64,000 bases of DNA from Falciphora oryzae (Eukaryota > Ascomycota > Sordariomycetes > Magnaporthales > Magnaporthaceae): the NCBI GenBank assembly GCA_000733355.1, contig JNVV01000054.1, forward strand, positions 197,237 to 261,236, read 5' to 3'. Within the stretch, counting starts at the first letter, position 1. Each line of letters starts with the position of its first letter. The position numbers and the translations under genes were made by a program. The notes beneath the pieces were generated by a model, which worked only from the letters and a program-made list of their open reading frames with translations, ran no database searches and had not been told where the DNA came from. Shown here in pieces: positions 7,360 through 56,756 of this stretch.

Positions 7360-9484
7360 CTAGGCGCCCACCATCCTCTGTCTCGCGTGGGAGTTGTATC
7401 CTTCCTTCGCCAAATCTGCATCCACCTCGCTGTCGGAGTACCACCCGGGCGGCAGCAATCGGCCCCGGATGCGGATGAACTTCCGCAGCAGGCTGGGGTG
7501 GAAGGCGATGCGCTCAAACCATAGTTCCACCTCTGCGTCGAACCGGCACCTGAGCACGAGGCCCAGCAGCGAGAGCGGCAGGCCCACGCCGAAGCATAGG
7601 CCGAGCGCGACCAAAAAGTAGATTAAAACGGCGGTCGTGGCGAGCCAGACGAGCCAGGTGGCCAGGTAGGCCAGGATGGCGCCGACGAAGTAGGGGCTGA
7701 AGATGAAAAAAACGAGGAACACGGCCAGGGCGAACTTAAGCACGGCGCGCGTGCTTAGGCTGTTGAGCCGGTTGGACGCGGCGGCCGACGAGCGCGAGGT
7801 AAAGCGGTTTATAATAACGGCGCACGACTCGAGGCCGACCCAGCGGACGTTAGGCGAGCGCAAGAAAATACGGACGCCGTAGGTGGCGACGAAAACGGCC
7901 GAGAGCGTGGCGGCCTAGGTTGCGATGTTCGGGGGGTCCGACATTAGCTCGTGGACCTGCATGAAAAAAACGGACGTGATGAAGGACAGCGGGATAAAAA
8001 TAAGGCGAACTCGGTCAGCTTATTAACGCCCGACGTTTGTTTGATAACGAACGCGTTCTGCGCTAGCCCGATAAACGTTAGGAGGAGCTGCAGGGTCGAG
8101 TCGATCCGGGCCTGGAACTTATCGACCTCCCCGGCGAAGGTTGCCATTTCGGCGAGGAGGTTTTGGCGTTCCGTTACGAAACCATTCTCGGCACCGCCGT
8201 CTTTATCAACCGACGCCACCGAAAAGAAAGCCGATATCAGGTGGGCTACCCAGTCGCGCAGCTCACGGACCGTATCGCGGGCCCAGGACAGGTCTTTTTG
8301 TATCGTAGTGCCCACGACCTCAACGAGGTGCAGGTGCAGGTCGGTGCCCATGCCGGCGTTGACGTGGTCCAGGCCCAGCCGCATTTCGGCCAGCAGTTGC
8401 CAGAGGTCGTCGAGCGAAAGCTATGCCAGCACAACGGCGGGGAGGAGGGGCGAAGCGGCAGCTCGTTGTCCCTTTGCGCCGTCCGCCGCTTGGCGCAGAA
8501 TGTACCGTAGCACCAGCTCGTCCGTCGGTAAAACGTACTTGCGCGCAAAGTCGCGGTCGCGCGTATACCATTTGGGGTCCTTGTACTTTTTATGCCGCTC
8601 CTCGCGGTACTCGTCTTCGGATAGGTTGCTTTGGTCGGAGCATGAGATTCCGGACGTGTCGTCGCCGTCGTCGTCGTCGTCGGGGCCGCCTTCCTCCATA
8701 ACCTCGACATCAACAGCAATCTTGTCTTTAGCTGGAATAGCGATTTTACCTGCCGCTTTTTTTTCGCCTCCTTTTCGCTTTTTGCTGTAGCCGCCGGCGT
8801 TTCGTAGCCTTCTCTTCGGCCCTACGCTGCTTTTTGGTTAGGGGCAGCGGCGGCGGGTCAAAATACGTTTCTTCGGGATCGGCGGTGCGCCACTACTCCT
8901 CGTCCGTATAAGCTTCGATTTCCATTGGCCGGGGCATAAAGGTTAGCGACGGCGTGAGCTCGCCGGTTTTGACGTTGCGCATAGCACGGGGAGGATCGAG
9001 CACCACCAAAACGACGGGCCTGCCCTCGCCGTCGACACCAGACCAGACGCTGGCGCCCTCGGGAGCCATAACGCGAAGGTCGCGGTTCTGCCAATACTTG
9101 CGGTCCTTGGGCAGGCTGCTAAAGGTGCTATAGGGTCGGTACACGTTGGAGGCCTTAACGCGCGCGGAGCCCTCCTTGCTTCCGGCATCGAGCTTAAGGG
9201 GCTCGCTGCCGCTGCCGGCAAAGGGACCGAGAAACTCCTCGCCCGTCGTTTTCGGCTTGTTCCAGTCCTTGCTATGCTGGGCGGCGTTCCTGGCCTACAT
9301 GCCCTTGTTTGTGATGGATGTGCCAAATTTGTTGAGGGCGACGTCGCGCTCTATAAGGAAACGCCCATCCTCGCCGTCGCCTATCCGCAGCTCCATATCC
9401 TCCTCGTAAAAGCCCTCGTGGCCGAGGTAGTGCATCACCCGCAACCGGCCCCAACGCATGTGCGCCCACCTCGCCGCCGCAGGG

Positions 9485-19356: not shown

Positions 19357-19641
19357 TGTAACAAGGGGTCAAAGACGGCTTGGAGAAGGATCTCTATATT
19401 GCAGATAATCTTTCTATGGGCTCAAGAGATGCTTGAGGAAGAAGGAATCTTTCATGGAGGACATAGGAGATGGCAGGGTTTATATAAACCACCCTGTGAT
19501 CCGTGCGAAGTATTGAGTATATGATTCACACTGCCCCTCCGGCCTTCGGCCTTTGGGCCTCGGGGCCGTTGGGCACCTATACCGGTTCCCGGACCTTCTG
19601 TGGGGCCGATTAGGTGAGTCCACAGGTTCTTCCGTGTGACA
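19357..19641 (-). mobile_element. Solo LTR, family LTR1 (reverse orientation)
   Basis: About 285 bp, TGTAACAAGGGG...CCGTGTGACA on the plus strand. It is the inverted counterpart of the LTR at 53428-53722 and shares several long blocks with it, such as AGGGTTTATATAAACC (there GGGTCTATATAAACCC). No target duplication is visible (TCTGA versus GTTGG). It abuts the LINE fragment directly, so one side was probably lost by recombination. Confidence 0.75.
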
Positions 19642-34461: not shown

Positions 34462-35664
34462 ATTTAACGTCAGTAAGTCGGGATCTACCAGTCCCTGCCT
34501 CCCAAGGGGCATATGACGTGCTAGCGCTACCTAAGCTTGACACAAGGCTACATGTTGCTATCAAGGCGGCTAACAAATTAAACCCATAGGCACACGGAGG
34601 TCGGGCCGCATTCCGGCGCTCCTTGTTGGTGAGCGGGCAATCGGCGGTAGGGCGTATGTATATACGCCGGGGCGTTGTGAAGCGCTGCGTGTGGTAGTGA
34701 TGCGTTCGGCCGGCGGGTGTGCCGGGAAAGGGGTAAGGCCGGGTTTGGGCGGGGAGGTCCTCGGGATCCCCCCTGGGCCCGGCCGGAGGTGCGGGGGACT
34801 AACGAGCCAACTGTTGGTCCTAATAGTACAAAGGAAAAGGGTATAAAGGGTAAGGGAAAGGGTTGTGTTCAGGCTTTAAAGCCCGTTACTATCGCCCGGC
34901 GATAGTATAGTGGTTAGTGGCTTCGACGAACGAAGCAAAGAGGGAGGGCTTTTGGAGAAGCCGTTTCCAATATCCAGGCCTATCGAAGGCCGGGGAGGGG
35001 TCCGCTATCGGCCACTTGTTTTCTGCCGCCCTAGCCAACCTGCAAAATACAGGGTGGGAGGGGGACTTGTTTCTTTCGCAGCGGCACGAGCTATCGTTTT
35101 CATGCTGGAACTTTCGGTGGTACCAGTCGAAATCCCCGTGGCCGGTGCGTGCGGCTATTAGCCGTTGTAACACCCTCCTGTGTAGTTGCAACGCGTTGGG
35201 CGTGTGTTGTGGTGCCGGCGGGAGACCTACAGCCCTGTACCGTTCCGGGAGGTTATTATTAAACCATGCGTTTCGGGCGTTTCGGGCCAATTTCCGGGCC
35301 AAAGCCTTTACTCCGGCCACCGTTGGCTTGGAGTGTTGGGGTATCGGCAAAGCCGATCCCAACTTTGCTTCGGCATCGGCCTCTTCGTTCCCGGGGATTC
35401 CCGTATGGCCCGGGGACCAGCGAACGTGTACCCGGTATTTATCCATAAAGCAATGGACCTCCTTAAAGGCCCCTTGTGAACTGTCGGGGGCCGTACTTAA
35501 GCAGCCGTTAGCCGCCGAAGTGTTATCGAGGCACAGGTAGAAAGTGCAGTTGCGGAAGCTCCCAACGGCTTTGCGGAGGCCCATGCGGGCCCCTTCCGCC
35601 TCGCCGTCGAAAACTTCCGCCGGATGCGCCAGCCGGCCGTGCCCGGAGAGTTTGCGTTGGCCCA
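34413..35664 (-). mobile_element. Tad1-like LINE, 5'-truncated copy 2
   Basis: Reverse-oriented twin of the element at 19642-20885. The open frame 34889-35665 (-) encodes the same RNase H and CRCERNKSPSHPVFC tail with few differences, so both derive from one recent source. The 3' tail is a long GA run on the plus strand (34412-34459). The 5' truncation joins repeat B through a shared CCAACGC. No target duplication is visible. Confidence 0.88.
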
Positions 35665-35965
35665 ACGCGGAGATGGGTTTGGTGGCCGCGGGTCAATTTT
35701 TTGGGAATCCCATACAAAATAATTTTTCGGAAAATCGCTCGCGGCACCGGACCCCCTTAGGGCGGAGAACCCCCGGGATCGATGTCGGAGAGTATATGAG
35801 GGAAGCGATGGTTGGCGCCCCTCAACTGCAATACAAGCCTGTTCCATCCACTAAGCTTGGGCCCCGACAGCGCTATTTTAGCGCTTATCAGGGCGCAAAC
35901 CAACTAACCGTGACCCTGCTAGCCACTGTGACTGCGCTGCAAAGCCCCAACTTTGACCCCGTATA
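35665..35965 (+). repeat. Repeat B, uninterrupted copy
   Basis: About 300 bp also present, in reverse orientation and split in two, at 49484-49609 and 56218-56400. This copy reads CAACTGCAATACAAGCCTG through the point where the other copy is interrupted, so it serves as the empty-site reference for that insertion. Confidence 0.85.
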
Positions 35966-36049
35966 TTAATAATAATATGACGTCCCTTCTTGTATTATTC
36001 CTTCACTCCTCTGGGTAAAAGTGTTTGCACGGAACTCTCCCAACATTTT

Positions 36050-49609: not shown

Positions 49610-49729
49610 TGTTATAGCGTGGCGTGCCCTCTCGTGCAGCCTTGCCTCACAGAGGGTACTTGAGCCTCCAATTGAGCCAGAGTCTCGACTTTGGCTTAGT
49701 CGTCCTTTTGGTAGCAAGTGGGTGGAGGC
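49610..49729. mobile_element. 141-bp TG...CA insertion (LTR2), left 120 bp
   Basis: Starts TGTTATAGCGTGG and continues to 49729. The right 21 bp are at 56197-56217, ending CGTGACA. Its 5-bp target duplication is CTTGT (49605-49609 and 56218-56222). The size suggests a short solo LTR, but internal sequence is unknown. The last 9 bp here (GGTGGAGGC) are the target copied by the next insertion. Confidence 0.8.
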
Positions 49730-50018
49730 TAGTCTCAGTGGCTCAGACCAGATGAGGGGCGAAGGTCACACAAGTCACTTTTTCTCCACATCCAGCCACA
49801 TCATTAATTCAGCCAATCACAATCCCCACACAACTTCGCCGCCATCTGGTCTGAGGTCGCATGGTGCGAAAAGTGGCATGCGATTCTGAAATCCCACCCA
49901 GCCTCCAATCTACCAAAATTACCATTCTCCTTTCCTCCACCACATTACGCAATTCGTGCCTACCGGTCTCTATTTAGAATCTGCGCCTACGAAAATCGAA
50001 ATTTTGGGCGTTATCGCC

Positions 50019-53000
50019 ATGTCGTCTCCTTCTTCTCTTTCTTCATTACCGGCTTTCCTTTCCGATCAACCGCCGCAACCGGCTCCTAATGCCACGTTTC
50101 CCACATCGGATCTCACGATCTTGGCAACATCCCCACCTCTCCCACCGGCCGACTCCGACTCCGACTCCGACTCCGACGACGAAGGCGACGACAATGATAC
50201 GCCTTCGAACCTTTTCCCCTACTCAACGCCTCGGCCGGCTGCTTTCGATTCACCTTCAGCGGCGCGTAATTCCCGCCTACAAACAGCTCGCCGTTTAAGG
50301 GCCCCCGCGTCCCTCCAAGAGCCCCGCCACTCCTATCCATCTGACGACGATTCCGACCCCCTAAAAGAGCCCGACTCCCCGACCTATAACCTGGTACAAG
50401 AAACGCTGCAGTTTTGGCGCAGTTTAGAGCCACAATCTTCGTTCCCCAAATTCTTCAAACAATGGGCGTGTCAGCGTCGCACCGATGGCAGACGCAATGG
50501 ACCTCGCCTTTCCCAACTCCGCTCCTGTTTGCAAAACCCCGACGTTCAGCATGCTCTTTCCGAAACTGGCATCCAGATCCTGCTCGACGGCGAAAGCGCG
50601 CCTCCAGATACGTACTACGCCTCTATCCGCCGAGAGCTTGACGCCCTTGCCGCGTTCAGCCCGTTCGACAACTTCGACCCGGCACAATTCAATGAAGGAG
50701 ACGCCCCTTGCACCGCCAAAAACATCTGCGACGTTTCCTGGGTACAAAACCAGCTGTTGCAATGCGACTCCCGCCTTCAAAAACATGCGCCCCTGCTCAA
50801 CCAGTTGCTCACTACTGTCATGGTCAATACCCGAGCCGACTGGGACTCCTATGGCCCCAACCGTCGAACCCCCAAACCTACACCTAAAGGGGCGGCGACC
50901 CCAGGGGGGACAGTTGCCCCAGGTGGGGCGGCGACCCCTGGAATGGCAGCGACCCCTAAAGGGGCAGCGACACCTGGAGGGGCAGCAACACTTAAAGGGG
51001 CGGCAACAACTACAGCCACAAACCTTGGCCCCCGTTATATGATTGCAAGTATTATAGCACACGCGCGGGCGCCTAAAAAAAGCAACTATCTAGGGCGGGT
51101 CCTTAGGATTTATCAGGTAAACAGTGGCGTTCCGCAACGGGTGATAAATGTCCTTTCAAAGTTCGGGGTCAACTCCTCCTACAGGGTCACCAAAAACCAA
51201 ATAACTTCCATGATCGACAGGGCTACAGTACGTCTGCCAACTAAATAATAACCGATTTTATCTCTTGTATTAATATGCCTTCCTCTATAGAAGAATATCC
51301 AGCGTATTGCCCTTAACCCCAGCTTGACATTTGTTTACGACAACTTCAACTTCATGGACCGTGTCCAAGACCTTGGACAGGGCCGCAAAAACGTTATGCG
51401 AAACATCACCACCTGCCTCGCCATCGGGAGCCCCGACATCGTCCGCTATACCCAATCACAATGGCATGCTACAGTGCCGTTCAAGTTGGAGTGGCTCCGA
51501 GGCCCATATATGTTAGCCCCTCCTACTGCGAAACCGATATGCTCCCAATACCTTTTCCGGCATGAGGTGCTGCACCACCTTTTCAAAGGCACACATGCCG
51601 ACAGGTTTCCTGCTTGCCAGTTCCCCAACGTCTCTCGTGTCAACACCCCAAAATCCTATATTATCCAAACCCCAGCCATTATAGAAAGCGAAGGCGAGCT
51701 TAGCGGTGTTCTTCGGGTTCATGAACAACTTTTCCAGGGGATTTTAGGTCTCAAACCCGGCACATTTGACTACAACAACGTCCTTATCCTACTCCATAGC
51801 GACCAAAAAACAACATCCTTTATCAAACATATCCAATCCGCCAACATCGAATGTACTACACCTTTTAACCGCAAGCAATGGCTCCTTCCAATCCCTGCCT
51901 TCTTCCACGTCCAAATCAATTTTATCCACCACGTTTGGAAAAAGTTTTATCCTCTAGTCAAGGCCGATATCCTGGGCTTCGGCCGTGGTCAAAAGATATC
52001 TAGTTCCAAGCCAGAGTTTTACCACGCGCTTCGACTCCTCCAAGACAGCTACCGTACACGCGTCCTTGCCATAAGCATAAGCGTACTCCAAAAGGATGGC
52101 AAACTCCCCAGAGGGCAGGGACTTATCCCATCCGCCGTACAAGAAGCGTTTGCCTCCGCTTCCCCGGAATACATCGAATCCCTCCAAACCAGGGTCGACA
52201 AGGAGACGTTTTCAGCATCTGCCACTGCAGGACGGAACCCCAACACGAACAGTCCCGTCAACATCCCTTTCCGGTCACAAAGTCGGTACCTCCAGGCTAT
52301 ACAGCTGCTCTGGACTGTTAACGAAGCTGTACGACAAGGGGATTTCGGTATCCTCCAACAATACATTCCCCTCCTTGTCTTCTTTTTTTATGGGTGCAAA
52401 GCCAAAAACTACGGTCCAGAAATGCTATATCTAGCTTGGCTCATACATCCAGAAGTCACAAACGAGCCACTCCGCACAGCTATCCTTCGGTCAAGCCTTG
52501 TTCGTTGCACTACGGCTGGCAGTGGATTTAAAGCTATCGATCTCGCCATTAAGCACCTCAACAAGGCGTTCTCTCTCGACATCAAATACAACAAGAACTC
52601 GACCCACGACATCTGGGCTACGTTTAGAGACTGCGCTGCCCTTGGACCTTTGGGAGCAGTAATACGCAAAGCATTAAAATCTGCGTTTGGCCAATATAAT
52701 AATGCCAAACATACCGTAGCGTCTACCAAGCAAAACGTTATGCAATATGCGTGTTTACTTGTCAACAATGGATGGGGCAGCAAATACGACCAGGCGAAGC
52801 AGGATTCCGAGTTCGACGCCCCGGCATTATTCGCAGACGGGATCAAATACATGCACAATGGCAAACTAGAAGCTTTCAACCGCACCATCGTACGGCCCGC
52901 TGATATTTTTTCCCAGCAAGGGCTAGCAGATGCCGAAGAGGGGGTAGCTAACATAATTATCGAGAATCGGGAGGGCGACCGGGGATATTATTCAGGGGGG

Positions 53001-53027
53001 AACGAAGATAATGGAGCAGACGAATAG
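50019..53027 (+). CDS. DUF6589-like protein, intact, candidate transposase
   Basis: Two exons, 50019-51227 and 51291-53027, joined by a 63-bp GTACGT...ATAG intron in phase 0, giving 981 aa. ATG 49956 would add 21 residues. The N-terminal third is Ser/Pro/Asp-rich with a tandem (P/L)KGAATPGG tract (about 50880-51010). From residue ~400: FVYDNFNFMDRVQDL, VMRNITTCLAIG, FKLEWLRGPYMLAPPT, LILLHSDQKTTSFI, WLLPIPAFFHVQINFI and YGCKAKNYGPEMLYLAW, the block pattern of fungal DUF6589 proteins. DNF, HSDQKT and the late AKNYGPE acidic residues could form an RNase H-like DDE core, but this is speculative. No stop or frameshift, in contrast to its neighbour. Confidence 0.8.
50880..51015 (+). repeat. Coding minisatellite (KGAATPGG type)
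   Basis: Seven or so imperfect 15-24-bp units of ggggc(g/a)gc(g/a)ac, in frame, in the linker of the DUF6589-like protein. Confidence 0.8.
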
Positions 53028-53216
53028 GAATTAGGCTAGCCCCTAAATCTATGAGGATTGGGACAAGGTTCGACAGGCCGTGCAGTCGCCTTTTGGACAG
53101 AGGCCCACTAAATACAGCAGTCGCTAGTAAGATCATCGTCTTTTAAATGAAGCCGATGGTTCAGGGTTTCCTGGAGATACCAAAGTACGTTTCCCTTTTG
53201 CGGTTGCCCCTTTAGG

Positions 53217-55888
53217 CTATAAAGCCCCGACGTCGATCTTTTTGCGTCTATTGGTCTGGTATTCGGCGTATGCTGCCATGCCCCTAGCTTTGATAGCTTC
53301 GCATTCTTGTACCAGTAGCTGGCCGTGAGCCTCCAACCAGTGCTGGCATATATCCCCCCCGATAGCCGGTACCCGTCGGCACAGGTCGTAGACATCCCGG
53401 ATAGCTATGCGGGATGTTTTGATGGACTGTCACACGGAAGAACCCGTGGACCTAACTAGTCGGCATCACGAGTCGGCCTTACGGAGGTTCGGAGACCCGC
53501 ATAGGCGGTCAACGGCCCCAAGGCCAAGCGGTGAAGGTTGGAAGGCAGTGTGAATCATGTACTCGATACTTCGCACGGATCACAAAGGGTCTATATAAAC
53601 CCTGCCATCTCCTATGTCTTCCACGAGAGATTCCTTCTTCCTCAAGCATCTCTTGAGCCCATAGAAAGATTATCTGCAATCTAGAGATTCTTTCTCCAAG
53701 CCGTCTTTGACCCCTTGTTACATGGACAGACTGAGTTCTACGGCGATGGCAGGTTCCAGCATCCATTCGCCGGGGAGGTCAAACCATCGGTCGTCGTCAG
53801 GGGCGATGATGTAAGTCGCGAGTTCGGAGGCGAATGACATCAACTCTTTGTAAATAAACCATTCTTTGGTATGCCCATATACGCTTTTATCTTTTTTCGC
53901 AATAGCTGTTACCGGAGGGAGTCGTCCAAGTTCGTGGTGACATGCGTTACAGCAAAGTGTGTGCTGGACGTTAGACAGCTGCACCTCTTGCAGCAAATCG
54001 AGCATCTCCTGCCTAAAGCACCTGGCATTAGCGAATCTAAACATCTCGGGATGTTCGGCCCTCAGCTTCGCGCGCCGGCGCTAATCTTCTTAGGTCCAGT
54101 GGTTGTGTTATTTCCCTGAGAAAATGCCCAGTTCTTCGTTAACTTCGTCGTTCGTAATGGAGGACAAATGTCCCCCGGCCATACTGGATTCCACGTCGAG
54201 AATGGAGAATCGCGCTTATAAATAGTCGGAGCCAAACAACTGTAATTCGTCTGCATCTGTATTTATACCAGATTCTGCCAACTCGAAGCGCAGACTGCTG
54301 GATGAAGCAGGAATATGGGTTTTTTTGGAGCCCCGTTTAGGTTTCGTCTTTTTAAGGACCGCAGTGCCCTGGGTGTCAAAATACCAGTAAGGGGCAAAAA
54401 AATAAGCGGTACCCTGCCCCACATCGGATCGGGACGCCCTGCCGAACCGCTATGACAGATCCGATACGTCCAATGAGATCGGTGCCCTGAATTGCACCAC
54501 GCGCATTACGTCTGGAATATCCATTCCCATACCCAAAGATACGGTAGCTAGGATAATACGGATAGGAGAATCGGTGCGCCTAAACGTGTTATACAAGAGG
54601 CGTTAATCTGTTGGTGGGGTAAGGGAATTGTAAATGCCAATGGTGCGGACTGCAGTAGCCCTATCAACTCCTTAGGAAATAAGGTGCTGGAGGAGAGCAT
54701 GGCGGGCAGCCACGAGCTCAGACCTATTGTCTATGTAAACAATGGTCTTAGGGATGCTTTAAATCAAGTTGTATAGCCGGACGTAGCTTAAAAAAAAAAA
54801 CAAAGGCTGGTAGTCGTTGCTCAGCTTGTTCCTTTCCAAAGCTTGTATAACGATAGATATGTCCGGCCTATCAACAAACGTGCGGATAATTCGGAGTTGA
54901 TGCTCGCCTGGGCCGAGCTGACGGAAGCCGGCATAGGAGAGGACAAAGTCCTCTGCTTCTTCGGTCAATGTAGCAGTGCACCCAAAAAATGGGATGGCCA
55001 TAGGGATCGCGGTTCGGATTAGATGCAGATTAGGGTAGGACGTGCGGAAATCTTTCCACTGATGGACGGTATGGAGCTCGTCGATGGCCAAAAAGGCGAT
55101 GTGCTGGCTGAACTCGGGGTGGCGGAGGAGGGAAAGGAACCGAGAATCTGTAGCTTGCTCAGGGCCGAGGAGAATATGTGTGTATTGCGTCGCTTTTTGG
55201 TGGTTCCAAATGTCTGCGTCCTGCAAGGGGATGTTAATATATCTTTTCCTATGTTTATATTTGGGAAATGGAGTACCTTGCGTGTGGTTTGGTCGATGAG
55301 GATGGGGTTGGCGAAGGGGAAACCTGCAACCACTTCTGCTTGTTCGTCCCCCAACTTGCTAAGCGGGACGATCTGGATAGTAATATGCTTATTCCTAATA
55401 ACAGATACGGCCTGGAACACAATGCTTTTGCCATATCCTGTCTTGGCAATGAGGATTGTATCCCCTAGTTTGTAAACGATACGCCGGATACATTCGATCT
55501 GGTCAGGCTTTGGAATACGCGGTTCCCGATGCGCTGGCGCCCCCTGATTCAAGAGAGACGTAGTGACAGCCTCTAAGAACCGCTTTTGCAATGAGGTATC
55601 CTGTGCGCGTGAAGTATACTCGTACAATTCAGCAATGACCTGGCGGAAAGGCGCATTATCAACCTGCTCATCTGCAAGGTTTTTGCTCTGAGAAATGGCC
55701 GTGAGCAGATAAAACAAATTGTCTGGGCGAGCCAATGGCCAGGAGATCCCCAACTCCAAATTTGGGGCCGCGGACATCATTGATGGTAGATCTGGCATGG
55801 GGGTCGCTGGAGAGGCGATTCCCAAGACCAACGAAAATGCACCTGGGCGGTTAAAAAAAGTGTTTATGATCGAGATGCAAAAAAACAA
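53217..55888 (-). pseudogene. RecQ-like helicase, eight stops and a nested solo LTR
   Basis: Exon 1 (55277-55888) gives IPKPDQIECIRRIVY, ILIAKTGYGKSIVFQA (motif I) and IVPLSKLGDEQ (motif Ia). A 56-bp intron (55221-55276) follows, then HILLGPEQA, FLAIDELHTVHQWKDFR (motif II, DELH), FFGCTATL (motif III), KTIVYIDNRSEL, ILATVSLGMGMDIPDVMRVV (motif V) and RFGRASRSD (motif VI), then a CCNACHHELG Cys/His cluster. Stops are TAA or TAG at 54759, 54672, 54603, 54450, 54216, 54108, 54090 and 54081, all in one frame without indels. The stop at 54450 replaces the motif VI Gln (QRFGR). Removing the LTR plus one target copy restores frame to a stop at 53217. Intact length would be 771 codons. Confidence 0.88.
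53428..53722 (+). mobile_element. Solo LTR, family LTR1, with 5-bp target duplication
   Basis: 295 bp, TGTCACACGGAAG...CCTTGTTACA, flanked by TGGAC at 53423-53427 and 53723-53727. TG...CA ends and a 5-bp duplication are typical of Ty1/Ty3-type LTR elements, and the internal region was lost by LTR-LTR recombination. It interrupts the helicase gene. A TATATAAA box lies near 53594. An inverted relative is at 19357-19641. Confidence 0.95.
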
Positions 55889-56196
55889 AAAACACCATTA
55901 GATGCGGAATCTCGAGCTTACTTCCAACATATGGGTTTGAGATCAGCAAGAGTCGGCTTTCATGAAGATATTTTGGAGTGCTTTTTTTGATATTTTCGTT
56001 TTGTGTGGAGGTTTCCAAGACCAACGGCAGAAAATCACCATGCGGTCTCAGACTCAAACCAAAAAAAGTCTGTGGCCCCACAGTACAAGTGCACGGGCCA
56101 GTGACTTGCGACTGAGCCACTTGGCGAGCCACAACCCACCAGAGGTGGGTTCCCTTTTTGTGGGTTGAGTCGGAGCCACTGAGACTAGGTGGAGGC

Positions 56197-56217
56197 TCCT
56201 ACTGCCGAACCGTGACA
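56197..56217. mobile_element. 141-bp TG...CA insertion (LTR2), right 21 bp
   Basis: Runs TCCTACTGCC to CGTGACA and is followed by the CTTGT target copy (56218-56222). It completes the insertion that began at 49610. Confidence 0.8.
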
Positions 56218-56400
56218 CTTGTATTGCAGTTGGGGGGCGCCAACATTCGCTTCCCTCATATACCCTCCGACATCGATCCCGGGGGTTCTCCGCCCTAAGG
56301 GGGTCCGGTGCCGCGAGCGATTTTCCGAAAAATTATTTTGTATGGGATTTGCAAAAAATTGACCCACGGCCACCAAACCTATCTCCGCGTTGGGCCTCCA
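56218..56400 (-). repeat. Repeat B, right part of the split copy
   Basis: Matches the reverse complement of 35665-35840, from CTTGTATTGCAGTTG to CGCGTTGGG. Confidence 0.85.
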
Positions 56401-56756
56401 AATCTGACTTGTCAATTCTGTGCAGGGTAGATGCGCGGGGTAGGCGAGTCGGGGCGACCTACAACGGCTGACTTGGGTGCTTAGGCATCCTACAGGGGCT
56501 GCAGGGCGCCTTTAGGCTTCCAGTAGGTGCTGTAGATGCTGTAAGCCACCCTTAGGCGCGCTATAAGCCCTGCCCGCTATTCCTTATGCACAACCCCACA
56601 ACAGTACAGGGTAGATAATCCAAGGAGGGTAGTACAGGGTAGGTTGGGCTTATGCACCCAACCTTAGTTAAATACATTAGTTCTTTTAACGCTGCGTATG
56701 AAAGTGCGCTTGGGATTACTCTGGATACCATATCCCTTTAAGTCTGGAGCACCAAC
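56401..56756. other. No gene; repetitive linker
   Basis: Holds locally repeated words such as acagggtag (three times near 56606-56652) and taggc. Probably decayed LTR sequence. No frame worth calling. Confidence 0.4.

Follow-up and report, generated by a model that had tools for sequence, protein, structure and literature searches.

According to papers citing Kojima's 2020 account (Mob DNA 11:15), AcademH is the helicase-encoding lineage of the Academ superfamily of DNA transposons. Here we describe a 6,458 bp element lying in a stretch of 64,000 nucleotides of the Falciphora oryzae genome (contig JNVV01000054.1, positions 197,237 to 261,236; this whole stretch is hereafter called the window), which we consider likely to be one member of a multi-copy AcademH-type family, on a comparison with the published description of Academ. 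A RecQ helicase in Academ was reported by Kapitonov and colleagues (PMC3627910), and in fungi 1,568 of 1,938 Academ copies contain recognizable domains, such as PF00270 and recQ_fam, owing to which they are frequently annotated as host genes (PMC6416283). The target site duplication (TSD) is 9 or 10 bp in AcademH and 3 or 4 bp in AcademX, a difference suggested to be related to the helicase or nuclease of the two lineages (PMC10045372), and Basidiomycota, Ascomycota and Mucoromycota are reported to carry AcademH in low copy numbers (PMC10799480). Another lineage with a RecQ helicase, KolobokH, belongs to Kolobok and has been found in fungi only; there the helicase follows the transposase domain, and one red-algal Kolobok is reported to have a helicase on the complementary strand (PMC9587614).

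The F. oryzae element resembles AcademH in being a fungal DNA transposon with a helicase (of the RecQ family, as in fungal Academ), in its terminal inverted repeats (TIRs), in a 9-bp TSD that falls within the 9-10 bp range and in a DDE-type transposase; the likeness is to AcademH as described in print. A preliminary description of the locus had suggested a different class of element for a RecQ gene carried between TIRs and TSDs. This proposal is not supported, since the RecQ helicase of Academ, the 9-10-bp TSD of AcademH and KolobokH are all on record, and RecQ-bearing transposons with TIRs and TSDs were known before. The link between DUF6589 and such transposons may be new; in the papers covered by our literature search the domain was not named, and its Pfam accession, PF20231, appeared only in one unrelated optics paper.

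The element and its family in the F. oryzae genome

The element spans positions 49730-56187 of the window, and its inverted termini enclose two genes arranged tail to tail, one for a DUF6589 protein and one for a RecQ-type helicase. The termini are inverted copies of TAGTCTCAGTGGCTCxGAC, with 18 of 19 bases paired and 15 of them in a perfect run (TAGTCTCAGTGGCTC at 49730-49744 on the forward strand and its complement at 56173-56187), and they are flanked by two copies of GGTGGAGGC identical in 9 of 9 positions. The perfect 15-bp repeats and the perfect 9-bp duplication of the preliminary description were confirmed, and such termini and duplications of 9 bp recur elsewhere in the family. In the genome searched (50.18 Mb in 123 contigs; the TIR scans were confined to it, other species being covered as proteins), the exact 15-mer occurs 23 times, 10 on the plus and 13 on the minus strand, compared with no occurrence of the same word read backwards, and for a 20-bp form of the TIR, allowing up to 3 mismatches, there are 111 occurrences, compared with 21 for its reversed control.

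Twenty loci were selected by their TIRs, 12 as inverted pairs and 8 as single ends, and an inverted TIR pair was present in 14 of them. The 9-bp duplication is perfect in 10 of these 14 loci and matches in 8 of 9 positions in locus L065; the others do not match as read (L058 4/9, L060 2/9 and L062 2/9), with L058 rising to 8/9 on the supposition that 2 bp were lost from its left end. When left and right 9-mers were compared across different loci as a control, at least 8 matches were reached in 0 of 182 comparisons.

Both genes, in pieces and tail to tail, were found in 13 of the 20 TIR-selected loci. At the other loci these pieces are from about 28% to 92% identical to the window copy, most close copies falling at about 70-92% and L052 and L055 at about 28-65%; since the pair is found in close and distant copies alike, DUF6589 and the helicase have stayed together through divergence. 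The association was also recovered by a search independent of the TIRs, in which the Pfam model of DUF6589 gave 47 matches at 42 places and a piece of the helicase gave 45 matches at 41 places. An element-type helicase lies within 10 kb of DUF6589 at 34 of the 42 places, tail to tail in 34 of 34, and the eight DUF6589 places without one are distributed over contigs C30 and C69 (two each), C35, C36, C72 and C93. Conversely, no DUF6589 match lies within 10 kb at 7 of the 41 helicase places, among which those on C6 and C11 score above the general RecQ model's cut-off, contain open frames and resemble host RecQ genes. Two further RecQ matches above the model cut-off, similar in their two-piece layout, were noted at C54:188306-189491, just left of the window, and at C9:118697-119904.

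The proximity of TIRs to these pairs was judged with 100 listed of the 111 TIR places, counting inward-facing matches within 4 kb. Among the matches listed, 8 pairs have a TIR on both sides, 19 on one side and 7 on neither, giving 27 of 34 with at least one, where the chance expectation is 0.0044 per side; on the helicase side a similar distance to the TIR recurs, at 948-1,005 bp in 15 of the 17 matched pairs. A match on one side alone agrees with decay of the opposite end. Pairs lacking these termini had been named beforehand as the observation that would speak against such a unit, and the seven without a listed TIR within 4 kb are of this sort; we read them as reflecting decay and a TIR list of 100 out of 111 places, and not as a refutation. 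The co-occurrence of DUF6589 and RecQ genes with these termini, which the preliminary description had proposed to seek in related genomes, is found across the F. oryzae genome itself. In protein tables, the longest contig is equally long for DUF6589 and helicase homologues in Annulohypoxylon truncatum (7,473) and in Lasiosphaeria ovina (645,570), and on the evidence of these tabulated lengths the gene pair may be linked in both species.

One of the places with no RecQ gene within 10 kb, C35:62163-89626, contains an open DUF6589 frame of 601 aa; a AGAGGCTC-type TIR match lies past the 5' end of the frame, and a second match, facing inward, is found some 27 kb away. This place may be a copy without helicase, an enlarged element or the result of nested insertions.

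Seven of the 20 TIR-selected loci are without either gene (L059, L060, L061, L062, L064, L066 and L069). Four of these, L059, L060, L061 and L064, have DNA in common (L060 solely near the ends) and, judged by sequence, look like non-autonomous relatives; the unit at L061:502-2033 is 1,532 bp long, with AGAGGCTC ends, a perfect 9-bp TSD and neither gene of the pair. L062 is a 241-bp TIR pair without a matching TSD, and neither the DUF6589 nor the helicase gene was matched at L066 or L069. The unit at L059:502-6510 is of the same kind as that of L061, enlarged by additional sequence containing some frames which, in our interpretation, resemble pogo/Tc1-type transposases.

The insertion site of the window copy was compared with other copies of the surrounding repeat. 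The flanks, joined with a single TSD, match those copies except across a segment of about 140 bp containing the junction (window ~49610-49729 plus 56197-56217). Other copies of that repeat, for example at window ~35659-35971, lack this segment, so that the element sits within another insertion inside a repeat. The right flank of the window copy (56218-56596) is an uninterrupted version of the target of the copy on C70 (L058:232-503 and 7656-7788), whose flanks overlap there by 10 bases.

The DUF6589 protein and the RecQ-family helicase

The DUF6589 gene has two exons forming a frame of 981 aa with no stop, and its exon-2 frame matches the Pfam family DUF6589 with an E value of 5.4e-53. AlphaFold2 modelling followed by structural alignment (P0016 was excluded from the alignment feeding the first model) predicted for DUF6589 an RNase H-like DDE transposase fold, nearest to those of the P element, Hermes and ISCth4, and a second round of modelling and structural alignment again gave this fold; in the model of the homologue P0001 the N-terminal half is helical, with low to middling confidence. 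The codons of the core residues lie in exon 2 (D at 51339-51341, D at 51801-51803, the His of an AxxH motif at 51906-51908 and E at 52419-52421), and among the non-gap sequences of the alignment these residues are conserved in 14/14, 18/19, 18/18 and 20/20, respectively. Foldseek alone gave no match for the DUF6589 model at E <= 0.001, the DUF6589 profile found no match among the sequences of solved structures up to E 10, and an NCBIfam scan of the exon-2 protein returned no family up to E 1. The preliminary description had named the DUF6589 protein as the likely recombinase and had looked to its fold for an RNase H-like DDE/D core; such a core is predicted and, together with the conserved D, D and E, supports that view. 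On the evidence of the models, the DUF6589 protein is the most likely cutting enzyme (recombinase or transposase) of the element.

The P element and Hermes have TSDs of 8 bp. With the P element and Hermes (hAT) the modelled protein shares the RNase H-like DDE core, a large insertion of helices ahead of the E and an xxxH motif after the fifth strand, but the sequence identity is 6-9%, the TSD here is 9 bp and no hAT or P domain was found, so that the likeness is one of fold only. Pfam gave DUF6589 alone, with no MULE, hAT, P or other transposase domain in the exon-2 frame (E <= 1) or in the homologues P0001 and P0004 (E <= 10). In exon 1 there are seven imperfect direct repeats with an 18-base spacing (window 50880-51021), encoding a short Pro/Gly/Ala-rich stretch.

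As to the second gene, the RecQ-family model TIGR00614 (recQ_fam) matches two pieces of it in the window copy (E 9.2e-6 and 1.5e-11), and one piece has matches among solved structures to chains of WRN, RECQ5, BLM and RecQ, the best E value being 1.3e-7. Its translation contains AKTGYGKS, then DELH and, further on, a cysteine cluster; we take the first two to be the P-loop and the DELH box, and the cluster recalls the RecQ zinc subdomain. The layout comprises exon 1 (~55798-55277), a putative intron (~55276-55221), exon 2 from ~55220 and a 3' piece (~53423-53136). Exon 2 contains eight in-frame stops, counted on the translation, and the gene is further interrupted by a 295-bp insertion bounded by TGT...ACA, which is flanked by a 5-bp duplication, TGGAC (53423-53427 and 53723-53727), and looks like a solo long terminal repeat (LTR). 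Sequences resembling this insertion were found at window 19357-19641 (83%), at L065:3477-3771 (99%) and at L011 and L023 (89%). With the helicase of L054 as tblastn query, two separate pieces were obtained in the window. The gap between the DUF6589 and helicase genes is 2,089 in the window copy, compared with 1,795 on C20 and 1,810 on C26, and the widening of about 300 bp fits the insertion. The helicase gene does not stop at position 53718, which is the edge of the nested LTR-like insertion, but continues to ~53136. Of the earlier picture of two inner genes lying tail to tail, both genes and their orientation stand (Table 1), with the corrections that the helicase gene is broken and that the nested insertion had gone unmentioned. 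Open helicase frames of 521-597 aa are present in the copies on C44, C92, C51 and C59.

Table 1. Features of the transposon and its insertion site, in window coordinates.
Feature	Position	Strand	Evidence
TSD, left copy, 9 bp, GGTGGAGGC	49721..49729	.	paired with right copy, 9/9
Left TIR, TAGTCTCAGTGGCTCAGAC	49730..49748	+	18/19 match to right TIR; core 15-mer repeated in genome
DUF6589 gene, exon 1, 403 aa, N-terminal part	50019..51227	+	open frame, GTACGT donor
Putative intron, 63 nt, GT...AG	51228..51290	+	translation
DUF6589 gene, exon 2, 578 aa plus stop, predicted RNase H-like DDE transposase core	51291..53027	+	predicted fold, conserved residues
Broken RecQ-family helicase gene	53136..55798	-	TIGR00614, solved-structure chains, translation, tblastn pieces
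Nested LTR-like insertion, 295 bp, TGT...ACA (not part of the transposon proper)	53428..53722	.	TGGAC duplication
Right TIR	56169..56187	-	inverted match to left TIR
TSD, right copy, 9 bp	56188..56196	.	paired with left copy

Rival classifications

Apart from an AcademH-type element, the reading that survives best is that DUF6589 forms an undescribed DDE superfamily of its own, with a P/hAT-like fold, and acquired its RecQ gene independently of Academ. It would be in keeping with the lack of any DUF6589 paper or relevant PF20231 paper among those covered by our literature search, with Pfam returning no other transposase family, and with the fact that the Academ likeness is drawn from published descriptions. 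However, the TSD length, the helicase family and the presence in fungi all agree with what is described for Academ and AcademH (PMC10045372, PMC6416283, PMC3627910, PMC10799480), and we consider an independent superfamily unlikely. In the most far-reaching form of this reading, transposition would depend on the helicase as an obligate partner, and fungal proteins now annotated as DUF6589 would be either the transposases of this superfamily or host genes descended from it.

The target duplication of Kolobok is TTAA, whereas the duplication here is 9 bp and TTAA was found at 0 of the 14 junctions of TIR-pair loci. Although KolobokH likewise combines a DDE transposase with a RecQ helicase and is found in fungi only, its helicase follows the transposase domain (PMC9587614), whereas here the two proteins are encoded by separate genes on opposite strands, an arrangement approached by the one red-algal Kolobok mentioned above. 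A KolobokH element is thus very improbable. Least credible of all is a Mutator-like element (MULE) that picked up a helicase, to which the 9-bp TSD would be suited, given that no MULE domain was found in the exon-2 frame, P0001 or P0004, in line with the earlier remark that the proteins are not recognizably MULE despite the duplication.

Telomere-linked RecQ helicases (TLH, Y'-type) are also RecQ-family helicases repeated in fungal genomes, but the genes described here lie within TIR/TSD units on many contigs and beside a transposase. Helitrons have neither TIRs nor TSDs, whereas TIRs and 9-bp TSDs are present here, and the helicase is of RecQ type.

Decay, transposition and significance

Repeat-induced point mutation (RIP) changes C to T at CpA and is expected to bias stop codons toward those so created. 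The 47 DUF6589 matches contain 209 TAA, 72 TAG and 4 TGA stops, a bias that appears RIP-like. Compared with the other copies among L051-L058, the window element (L057) ranks highest in G+C content (50.7%, against 39.1-49.4% in the rest) and lowest in TpA/ApT ratio (0.79, against 0.82-1.12), which makes it the least decayed of the eight on that measure. Because its transposase frame is open and its helicase broken, a helicase, if needed, would have to be supplied by another copy.

For an AcademH-type transposon of this kind, we propose that the DUF6589 protein would bind the ends of the element and cut there, and would then join them to the target with a 9-bp stagger, gap repair yielding the 9-bp duplication. 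The RecQ helicase would act as an accessory, and our tentative guess is that it unwinds either the cut ends or the product of strand transfer ahead of gap repair; replication-linked copying and the countering of host silencing are possible competing roles.

Under this assignment, a Pfam family still labelled as of unknown function gains a testable role, that of a DDE transposase. The anatomy of the element (DUF6589 and RecQ genes tail to tail, TAGTCTCAGTGGCTC ends and 9-bp TSDs) separates such elements from host RecQ genes in fungi, and the copies, some of them with open frames, are material for asking why a cut-and-paste transposon retains a RecQ helicase.
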